Shown here: one piece after another, positions 10,355 through 25,271 of the stretch
How positions within the stretch are numbered: the stretch's first letter is position 1
Layout of the letters: every line of letters starts with the position of its first letter
NCBI RefSeq assembly: GCF_003697815.1
Contig: NZ_RDQG01000028.1
Location: 1 to 43,408 of the forward strand
Direction of reading: 5' to 3'
From: Halalkalicoccus subterraneus
GTDB lineage: Archaea; Halobacteriota; Halobacteria; Halobacteriales; Halalkalicoccaceae
DNA length: 43,408 nucleotides
Notes under the pieces: model-generated
Databases searched by the model: none
The model's input: the letters and a program-made list of their open reading frames with translations, nothing else
Told to the model about the DNA's origin: nothing
Translations under genes and position numbers: made by a program

Positions 10355-10400
10355 ACCATACCAAGACAACGGCTTTCCGCCGGTTCGTCGTTGATCGGGT

Positions 10401-10799
10401 ATGGGCGAGATACCCGAGGAGTACGAGGGGCTGTTCGGCAAGAAGACGTTCGCACACGTCGCGACGCTGATGGAGGACGGGACGCCACAGGTGACGCCGG
10501 TGTGGGTGGATTACGACGGCGAGTTCGTCCTGATCAACACCGTCCGTGGCCGCCAGAAGGAGCGCAACCTGACCCGCGACCCGAAGATCGGCCTGTCGAT
10601 CCTCGACCCGAACGACCCCTATACGTACGTCTCGATCCGCGGGGAGGTCGCGGAGGTGACCGAGGAGGGCGCAGTCGAGCACATCGACTCGCTGGCCCGG
10701 CGGTACATGGACGTCGAGGAGTACCCCTATCACGACGGGGAGGACGCCGAGCGCGTGATCGTCAAGATCCGACCGGAGCGCGTGATCACGGGCCAGTGA
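10401..10799 (+). CDS. PPOX-class flavin/F420-dependent oxidoreductase
   Basis: A 132-residue protein of the pyridoxamine-5'-phosphate-oxidase-like split-barrel fold, closest in appearance to the Rv1155-type F420-dependent group. Typical stretches are FAHVATLMEDGTPQVTPVWV at the N-terminus, INTVRGRQKERNLTRDPKI (cofactor phosphate-binding region) and YVSIRGEVAEV. The single split barrel is full length for the family. The substrate is not known. The gene is divergent from the HTH regulator and 39 bp upstream of the methyltransferase gene. Confidence 0.88.
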   Translation: MGEIPEEYEGLFGKKTFAHVATLMEDGTPQVTPVWVDYDGEFVLINTVRGRQKERNLTRDPKIGLSILDPNDPYTYVSIRGEVAEVTEEGAVEHIDSLARRYMDVEEYPYHDGEDAERVIVKIRPERVITGQ

Positions 10800-19766: not shown

Positions 19767-19773
19767 CAAATCA

Positions 19774-19787
19774 GTACGTTAGCGTAC
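19774..19787. promoter_or_regulatory. Candidate trp operator (perfect inverted repeat)
   Basis: GTACG (19774-19778) and CGTAC (19783-19787) are perfect inverted arms around TTAG. The site lies between the box A and the trpC start codon, where a bound protein would block transcription initiation. Which protein binds is unknown; no regulator gene is adjacent. Confidence 0.5.
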
Positions 19788-19791
19788 AGTG

Positions 19792-22661: not shown

Positions 22662-22684
22662 TCCATGCCGGAGTGTCTCATACT

Positions 22685-23479
22685 ATGACCGCAGGCTTCG
22701 ACGCGCGACTCGACAGGATCAGTACCGGCGAAAAGTACCTCATCGTCCCGATGGACCACGGGATCACGATGGGCGCGGTGAAGGGACTAAAGGACATCGA
22801 GGGGACGATCGACGCGGTGACCCGGGGCGGCGCGGACTGCGTGCTCACGCAAAAGGGGATCGCCTCGCGAGTCCATCCGAACACCAACGGCGCGGGCTAC
22901 GTCGTCCACGTCAACGGCTCGACCACCATCGGCCCCGACGAGAACGACAAACGCGTGACCTGCACGATCGAGGAGGCGATCCGCGCGGGCGCGGACGCCG
23001 TCTCCTTCCACATCAACGTCGGCTCGGACTACGAGCCCGAGCAGATCGAGGGGCTCGCCGAACTGAGCGGGAAAGCGGAACGCTTCGGCATCCCCGTGCT
23101 GGCGATGGCCTACGCGCGCGGGCCCGGAATCGACAGCGCCGACCCCGAGGCGCTGGGCCACGCGGTGCGCCTCGCGGAGGAACTCGGCGCCGACGTCGTC
23201 AAGACGGGCTACTCGGGCGACGCCGAGAGCTTCCAGCACGTCATCGAGTCGACGCGCCTGCCCGTCGTGATCGCGGGCGGGGCGCGAGGCACCGACGAGG
23301 ACACCCTCGAGAAGGTCCGCGGGGCGGTCGACGCCGGCGGCGCGGGCATCTCGATGGGCCGGTCGATCTTCCAGCACGACGACCCCGAGGCGATCACGCG
23401 GGCGGTCTCGACGATCATCCACGAGGGCGCAAGCGTCGACGAGGCCATCGAGGAAGCAGGACTCGTGATCGAAGCCTGA
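22685..23479 (+). CDS. aroA': 2-amino-3,7-dideoxy-D-threo-hept-6-ulosonate synthase (ADH synthase)
   Basis: A 264-residue class I aldolase-like TIM barrel (DeoC/FbaB superfamily). In archaea this family makes ADH, the precursor of 3-dehydroquinate, replacing DAHP synthase. Visible features are IVPMDHGITMGA at the N-terminus with the conserved Asp/His, DAVSFHINVGSDYE, VVKTGYSGD with the Schiff-base Lys, and VIAGGARGTDED and GISMGRSIFQ for phosphate binding. Fructose-bisphosphate aldolase is the alternative, but linkage to trpCBA and to DHQ synthase II at 25334 favours the aromatic role. ATG at 22685 is preferred to an upstream in-frame GTG-type start. Confidence 0.92.
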   Translation: MTAGFDARLDRISTGEKYLIVPMDHGITMGAVKGLKDIEGTIDAVTRGGADCVLTQKGIASRVHPNTNGAGYVVHVNGSTTIGPDENDKRVTCTIEEAIRAGADAVSFHINVGSDYEPEQIEGLAELSGKAERFGIPVLAMAYARGPGIDSADPEALGHAVRLAEELGADVVKTGYSGDAESFQHVIESTRLPVVIAGGARGTDEDTLEKVRGAVDAGGAGISMGRSIFQHDDPEAITRAVSTIIHEGASVDEAIEEAGLVIEA

Positions 23480-23487
23480 AGACGGCT

Positions 23488-23498
23488 GCAGGCACAAC
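23488..23498. promoter_or_regulatory. 11-bp promoter motif, copy 1
   Basis: GCAGGCACAAC begins exactly 42 nt before the ATG of the broken sulfite-oxidase-like gene at 23530. An identical copy lies at the same distance from the next gene. The position is just upstream of where a box A would lie for a leaderless message, as for an activator site. Confidence 0.55.
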
Positions 23499-23529
23499 GA
23501 CTAACGACGGCGACGGCAAAGCGCCGCCC

Positions 23530-24431
23530 ATGCCACGCGAGCTCCGTCCCGGCGACGAGCCGGCACTTGACGAGGAGTTCCCGAACCTCACGGTGCTTTC
23601 GCGATCACCCGAGAACGCCGAGGTCGCCACCCGATCGGATCTCGACGGGCTGTTGACGCCAGCGGGGACACACTACATCCGGAACCACTACCCGACGCCC
23701 GAAACCGACGCCGAGGGATGGACGGTATCACTGACGGGGCTGGTCGAGGGAAGCGGGGAGACCGGGGCGGACGCCGACGGCCCCGCCGTCGGGATCGAGG
23801 AACTGCGCGAGGACTACCCCACCGAGTCGGTCGTTCACACGATGGAGTGTTCGGGCAACGGCCGCACGTTCTTCGAACCCGATGCGGAGGGCCACAGCAG
23901 TTGGAGTACCGTCTGCGGTTCGACGACGGGACGGATCCCGAGGAACTGGACTGCGTGGAGACCACGGATACATACGAGCAGATGGCGGCCGACGAGCCGC
24001 GCCACGCCTACTTCTTCGACCAACTCCCCAAATCGTTGATCACGGCCCCCGCCGACGGTGCGACCCTGTCGGCGGACGAGGCCGTCGAGATAGAGGGGCT
24101 CGCGTGGGCGGGCGAGAACCCCGTCGAGAGCGTCGAACTCTCGACGGATGGCGGCGGGACGTGGGTCGACGCCGACCTCGGGGAGCAAGCGCTCGGGCGC
24201 TACGCATGGCGGCGCTTCCGGGCCGAGTGGAACCCTGAGGCGGGCAAGCACCGACTGCTCGCGCGGGCGACCGACACGACGGGACGAATCCAGCCGACGC
24301 GGGTCGCCGAACCCGATCCCGAACAGACGGAAATCGAGGACGATAGCTACCCGTGGAACACGCAGGGCTACGGTAACAACGCCCACCGGCCGCTGGGAGT
24401 CTCGATACACGTCGGACTCGACGACGCGTAG
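23530..24431 (+). pseudogene. Sulfite-oxidase-like molybdopterin oxidoreductase, internally deleted and frameshifted
   Basis: The 5' part (23530 to about 23895) encodes the start of a molybdopterin-binding oxidoreductase: THYIRNHYPTPETDAEGW, VHTMECSGNGRTFFEP. The 3' part (about 23897-24431) encodes, in another frame, the end of the same kind of protein: EYRLRFDDGTDP, DTYEQMAADEPRHAYFFDQLPKSLI, then the Mo-cofactor dimerisation domain to GVSIHVGLDDA. About 100 residues of the central Mo-binding domain, including the expected GNAEW- and PGW/VKW-type stretches, are absent. Total length is about 300 codons against roughly 400 expected. A deletion that also shifted the frame explains this; a single sequencing error does not. 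It lies between two aromatic-pathway genes. Confidence 0.85.
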
Positions 24432-24440
24432 TCGCCGACC

Positions 24441-24451
24441 GCAGGCACAAC
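24441..24451. promoter_or_regulatory. 11-bp promoter motif, copy 2
   Basis: A second GCAGGCACAAC begins exactly 42 nt before the ATG of the SDR gene at 24483. It repeats copy 1 at 23488 with the same spacing, although the sequence around it differs. Confidence 0.55.
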
Positions 24452-24482
24452 TCGTTTGGCCGACGAGCGAGGTCCCCCTAGT

Positions 24483-25271
24483 ATGGGACAGGTACACTAC
24501 GACTTCGCGGACGAGACGGCGATCGTGACAGGCGGTTCCTCGGGCATCGGCCGGGCGATCGCGCTGGCGTTCGGCGACGCGGAGGCGACCGTGATCGTCG
24601 CCGATAAACAGGAAGAACCGAAGGACCCCGACAGCGACGTTCCGACCCACGAGGTCATCGCGGAGTCGGGGGGTAACGCCGAGTTCGTCGAGACGGACGT
24701 CGCAGACCCCGAGCAGGTCCGCTCAGTGGTCGAGGCCGCCCGCGACTACGGGGGAGTCGACGTCATGGTCAACAACGCGGGCGTGTTCATCGGCGGTTCG
24801 TTCACCGAGTACGACAGCGAGGACCTCGATACGGGCTACGAGGTCAACATTCGAGGAATGTTCGTCGGCACCCAGGCCGCCGCGAACGACATGCTCGACC
24901 GAGAGGCCGAGGGGGCGATCGTTAATACCGCCTCGATCAGCTCGAACCTCGCCCAGCACGGCCAAGTGGCGTATGACACCACAAAAGGTGCGTTGCGGAT
25001 GTTGACGCGGGGAGCGGCCCTCGAACTCGCTTCGGAGGGGATCAGAGTGAACGCCACCGCACCGGGTCAGATCGCCACGGAGTTCACCGAGAACGGTACC
25101 GAGCGCACCCAGGAGCGTGCCGGCGACGGGGAGTTCCTCAAACCGATCCCGATGGGGCGGGCGGGCTTTCCTGAGGACGTGGCCGACGCCACCCTCTATC
25201 TCGCGAGCGACGCTGCCGGCTACACCACCGGCGAACTGCTCCCCGTCGACGGCGGCTGGCAGATCGCCTGA
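24483..25271 (+). CDS. Short-chain dehydrogenase/reductase (SDR)
   Basis: A 262-residue classical SDR. The NAD(P) loop is TGGSSGIG (residues 16-23), NNAG supports the cofactor, the catalytic Ser is in VNTASISS, and Tyr/Lys are in AYDTTK. The end VDGGW is typical. It probably oxidises or reduces an alcohol, sugar or 3-oxoacyl substrate, but the sequence does not say which. The start MGQVHYDF is preferred over an upstream in-frame start because an 11-bp motif and a plausible promoter fit this ATG. It sits between the broken sulfite-oxidase-like gene and DHQ synthase II. Confidence 0.92.
   Translation: MGQVHYDFADETAIVTGGSSGIGRAIALAFGDAEATVIVADKQEEPKDPDSDVPTHEVIAESGGNAEFVETDVADPEQVRSVVEAARDYGGVDVMVNNAGVFIGGSFTEYDSEDLDTGYEVNIRGMFVGTQAAANDMLDREAEGAIVNTASISSNLAQHGQVAYDTTKGALRMLTRGAALELASEGIRVNATAPGQIATEFTENGTERTQERAGDGEFLKPIPMGRAGFPEDVADATLYLASDAAGYTTGELLPVDGGWQIA

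Follow-up and report, generated by a model that had tools for sequence, protein, structure and literature searches.

A conserved 11-base promoter element at the same position in front of two neighbouring genes of Halalkalicoccus

The upstream activator sequence (UAS) of bop and crtB1 in Halobacterium salinarum is a short sequence present in both promoters, through which a single regulatory system can control the two loci (PMC3184054). The basal promoter of haloarchaea consists of a BRE (CGAAA), a TATA box (TTWT) and a -10 element (WW) (PMC4983044). Here we describe an 11-base sequence, GCAGGCACAAC, that precedes two consecutive genes in a window of 43,408 nucleotides, which is the whole stretch of DNA that was analysed. 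A preliminary description of the window had reported identical 11-mers 42 nucleotides before both genes, and this was borne out together with the range given for them, 23488-24451. The copies occupy 23488-23498 and 24441-24451 on the forward strand, and each extends from -42 to -32 relative to the ATG of its gene, at 23530 and 24483, respectively. The element is real and conserved and is ordinary in kind, being promoter-proximal, joined to the predicted BRE and common to two neighbouring genes. It leaves general understanding unchanged, and its interest lies in being a well-bounded conserved promoter element, first spotted by eye and then confirmed comparatively.

The two copies lie among three genes on the forward strand. 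The first, identified by PF01791 and by synteny, encodes a DeoC/LacD-family aldolase of the ADHS type (22673-23479), closes the trpCBA run and has its stop codon 8 nt before copy 1. It is followed by a broken molybdopterin gene of the sulfite-oxidase-like kind (23530-24431) and by a gene for an SDR-family oxidoreductase of 262 aa (24483-25271; PF13561/PF00106), whose orthologue is found in the same place in all Halalkalicoccus genomes compared. The upstream order is trpC, trpB, trpA and aldolase, and the SDR gene is followed by that for 3-dehydroquinate synthase II. Three relatives carry about 1.1 kb of extra DNA between the last two genes (L062:11985-12900, L065:11637-12900) that is absent here and that contains, in G004 and G005, a divergent ArsA-type ATPase gene. 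An Rfam search of the window gave no match.

The molybdopterin-oxidoreductase (PF00174) and dimerisation (PF03404) domains of the oxidase gene are in two different frames, and its pieces correspond to positions 1-127 and 238-414 in the intact protein of G005. Residues ~128-237 are thus missing through an internal deletion accompanied by a frame shift. Intact orthologues preceded by the site are present in G002, G003, G004 and G005. The intact protein has its best NCBIfam matches to the SoxC/SorT/SorA sulfite dehydrogenases, all below the cut-offs, and for this reason we limit the name to sulfite-oxidase-like. The orthologue in G004 (L062:9755-11059) is open and has an insertion of ~20 residues, MGVRKSRALSSQSEASNASDD, in the C-terminal domain. 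The suggestion that the site here had outlived its first gene proved weak or trivial, because the gene was broken recently, its remaining sequence being 79-85% identical to G005 without further stops, and is intact in four relatives.

We derived a promoter profile from the upstream regions of 261 genes taken from 400 kb of G005 and the window. The regions are A-rich from -34 to -32 and T-rich from -29 to -26, with A at -11/-10, and the position matrix has the consensus CAAAAGTTTTT; this is the signature of leaderless haloarchaeal promoters (compare PMC4983044). Against this profile the CAAC end of each copy (23495-23498 and 24448-24451) is a predicted BRE, the TFB recognition element, with AA at -34/-33 and box A directly downstream. 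The oxidase gene has a weak box A, CTAAC (23501-23505), centred near -27, of which TAAC is kept in G002, G004 and G005. The box A of the SDR gene is GTTTG (24454-24458), and its TTT is invariant in all five genomes that have both genes. In both promoters box A falls at -29 to -25, within the interval of about -30 to -25 expected of leaderless promoters. The preliminary description was therefore right to place the 11-mer directly upstream of box A, but not upstream of the core promoter, since its CAAC end would be the BRE. Only GCAGGCA is left unexplained by the core promoter consensus, and plain selection on the core promoter consequently fails to account for its conservation.

That conservation was apparent when we set the sequences upstream of 29 window genes against those of their orthologues in four species. 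The block from -42 to -32 of both genes was 95% identical to the window, whereas the sequence from -60 to -43 was only 40% identical. In 19 other promoters the same block averaged ~55% identity, and ~80% was reached only at box A. Both G002 and G005 contain GCAGGCACAAC exactly twice per genome, at -42 of the oxidase and SDR orthologues. The oxidase copy is also exact in G004, where the SDR copy has one change, and G003 has GCAAGCGCAAC at the oxidase gene (two changes) and GCAGGCAAAAC at the SDR gene (one change). Both sites are therefore kept, exactly or nearly, in 5/5 genomes with both genes, across ~10% protein divergence. In G002 a 5-kb insertion has replaced everything upstream of copy 1 and left the copy intact, and the promoter halves downstream of the two copies differ, yet each copy was kept. 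Because the island of conservation is sharp and copy 1 survived the insertion, the block is under selection, and we take GCAGGCACAAC to be a real cis element selected across the genus. Sequence, fixed distance from box A and conservation are thus shared by the two promoters, as in a shared upstream activator site. These results also show that haloarchaeal promoters can be footprinted with a few species, and that the BRE can be told apart from a putative regulator contact in this way.

Other features of the upstream regions were noted. Between the oxidase box A and the ATG lies a degenerate inverted repeat, CGGCG...CGCCG (23508-23526, forward strand), with longer arms in G002, G004 and G005. 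It reads GGCGGCGAAGCGCCGCC in G002 and GCGCCGAATCGGCGC in G004, its orthologues are at L063:9985-10017, L062:9724-9756 and L065:9397-9429, and changes between species affect both arms. This repeat, which the SDR promoter does not have, could be an operator. Another inverted repeat, GTACGTTAGCGTAC, followed by AGTG, lies at 19772-19791, right before the start of trpC, with which the trpCBA run begins. The region upstream of trpC shows ~80-96% conservation within the genus, and the repeat is similar to the TGTACA TRP box to which TrpY binds in a methanogen. A box A island, CAACGGCTTTCCG (10368-10381), upstream of the gene at 10401-10799 is 97% conserved at -33 to -23, and the sequence directly upstream of it is unconserved.

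We consider a common regulator, acting through a conserved site of the activator type that is fused to the BRE, to be the most likely reason for the shared element, although we give it only about an even chance. The 11-mer would then be a composite element of two leaderless promoters, in which TFB would contact the 3' CAAC as the BRE beside box A and the regulator would contact the 5' GCAGGCA joined directly to it. A single DNA-binding protein, or a specific combination of TFB and TBP, would recognise the block and recruit the basal machinery to both genes, and the oxidase and SDR genes, each with a promoter of its own, would show a joint response. While the position, uniqueness, conservation and BRE overlap of the 11-mer were observed directly, the common regulator, its sign and its identity are what we infer from them. 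Activation is more likely than repression because the site abuts the BRE from upstream. If a protein does bind, the locus would be a compact case of neighbours, one of them recently inserted, placed under shared control by twin sites and not by an operon. Several points count against a common regulator. The oxidase and the SDR have no functional connection that is known to us, and start-anchored near-matches show no genome-wide excess, as described below. In addition, what the MoCo-less genomes G001 and G006 have at -41 of the SDR gene is only GCCGGCCCAAC; the exact word must therefore be dispensable at that gene there. We also read the loci of G002, G004 and G005 for a regulator gene in the inserts and found no convincing one; the inserts contain the ArsA-type ATPase gene in G004 and G005, and membrane, ion-channel-like and multicopper-oxidase genes in G002.

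The main rival, which we consider rather unlikely, is duplication of a promoter segment without a dedicated regulator. As the oxidase gene inserted itself between those for the aldolase and the SDR, about 16 bp of the SDR promoter would have been duplicated or captured to form the upstream half of the oxidase promoter, and both copies would have been kept as strong BRE-containing core promoters. As in a target-site-type duplication, the copies flank the inserted oxidase gene as direct repeats around a segment that is absent from relatives. The oxidase gene is missing from G001, G007, G015, G042 and G052, in which the aldolase gene is directly followed by the SDR gene, and what the short contig end of G006 shows is a junction of this kind. 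At the SDR promoter of the MoCo-less genomes G001, G006 and G007, GCNGG comes directly after the aldolase stop codon, with GCCGGCCCAAC right after the stop in G001 and G006 and GCAGGTCGGAT there in G007. The SDR site therefore seems to be the older one and the oxidase copy the newcomer. The preliminary description had argued that a recent duplication does not explain the copies; an old duplication may have occurred all the same, and the copies in G005 have as much as 16 bp in common (CGACTGCAGGCACAAC). However, the additional bases of that stretch, CGACT, are variable in the four remaining genomes, and an insertion repeat has no reason to fall at exactly -42 of the incoming gene unless it was selected. 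Nor does a core promoter call for GCAGGCA, which is conserved nonetheless. Neutral decay of the repeats and a link to a mobile element were not found, as both copies are ~95% conserved and no transposase lies beside the oxidase gene in the loci read. A duplication may have occurred at insertion, but only the part overlapping both promoters is kept. In the core tree G003 falls outside the other species (100) and the oxidase-less G001 is nested among oxidase-bearing species, whereas its SDR promoter looks like that of G006. Loss or replacement may have taken place in G001.

Coincidence is improbable. Two independently conserved promoters would share CAAC as a common BRE and match at seven further bases by chance. 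When the upstream regions of the 261 genes were compared pairwise in register, runs of up to 10 bases occurred in 6/33,930 pairs, but no pair reached 11. Extrapolation gave ~6e-5 per pair for an 11-base match, or ~0.2% over the ~40 adjacent pairs of the window. By pair statistics alone the match is thus unusual, though possible in a large scan, and a search by eye for any repeat involves many implicit comparisons. In the 3.61 Mb searched (101 contigs), GCAGGCACAAC occurs twice, compared with an order-2 Markov expectation of 0.62 and with three occurrences of the reversed word. The stronger argument against chance is that none of the five genomes has lost either site, three species having the same pair exactly and the other two nearly so. 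The contention that the match goes beyond chance was thus upheld, as the only two copies in the genome are both at -42 of adjacent genes and are conserved across Halalkalicoccus.

We also searched seven Halalkalicoccus genomes for a wider regulon, using the 11-mer, the 9-mer AGGCACAAC and the 8-mer GGCACAAC anchored to the ATG. A wide regulon was not found with any of these words. With up to two mismatches, 91 start-anchored matches were obtained versus 184 for the reversed control. Sites at start codons thus showed no excess over the control, and the regulon of several genes that the preliminary description had proposed to look for is not seen. Recurrent near-matches such as GCAGGTCCAACCGTTATG were in front of unrelated genes, look like ordinary promoters and were rejected. 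Homologues of the oxidase elsewhere (~40-53% identical) had no such site within 250 nt upstream. The 9-mer core identified three conserved gene sets only. At 29-33 nt before the ATG, AGGCACAAC has exactly three matches each in this genome and in G002, at the oxidase gene, the SDR gene and a gene that immediately follows the one for a NarJ/TorD-type chaperone and encodes a membrane protein of 86 aa. As ~0.4 anchored AGGCACAAC-type matches per genome are expected by chance, this third member is a lead only. The site thus serves only the oxidase and SDR genes and possibly a third.

The 86-aa gene is almost confined to the genus and lies beside a cluster for a formate-dehydrogenase-like enzyme, an iron-sulfur protein and a cytochrome b (PF00384, PF02613, PF01292). 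The site in front of it, AGGCACAACG, is kept in 5/7 genomes, with near-forms in G003 and G006. In the present genome GAAGGCACAACGTTTTTG lies at -42 of this gene (L213:9930-10261; G000:C8:51958), with its core kept in the genus. The oxidase site and the third site have changed in parallel to GCGCAACG in G003, as one regulator would explain, although a single base is concerned. A molybdenum-linked set of three genes, in which a site with the AGGCACAACG core would also drive the operon beside this cluster and the regulator would respond to molybdoenzyme use, agrees with the three anchored matches, the kept promoters and the proteins of the cluster but is the least probable explanation, given the number of matches expected by chance, a third site that reads GAAGGC... 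and in some genomes is displaced by a base or two, and an SDR without known molybdenum link. Doubtful as well is a more specific form of common control, in which an undescribed haloarchaeal regulator would recognise GCAGGCA plus BRE and jointly control the oxidase gene, the SDR gene and the accessory operon on the formate-dehydrogenase side. The possible tie to molybdoenzyme genes nevertheless makes the element testable.

As in insertions with flanking direct repeats, a gene missing in relatives is enclosed here by two direct repeats of 11-16 bp; unlike them, the locus has no transposase or mobile-element ends, and its repeats are conserved at a promoter-defined distance from the start codons. 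Like the haloarchaeal basal promoter, both promoters have CAAC at the BRE position with box A 2-3 nt further on, ~27 nt before the predicted leaderless start, but GCAGGCA, upstream of the BRE, is outside the basal consensus and conserved at both genes. The closest precedent is the bop/crtB1 UAS, which is under Bat/Brz control. It too is a short site common to the promoters of two loci and lies close upstream of the TATA box, and its known sequence differs from GCAGGCACAAC. In contrast to that system, the genes described here are neighbours and the site includes the predicted BRE.
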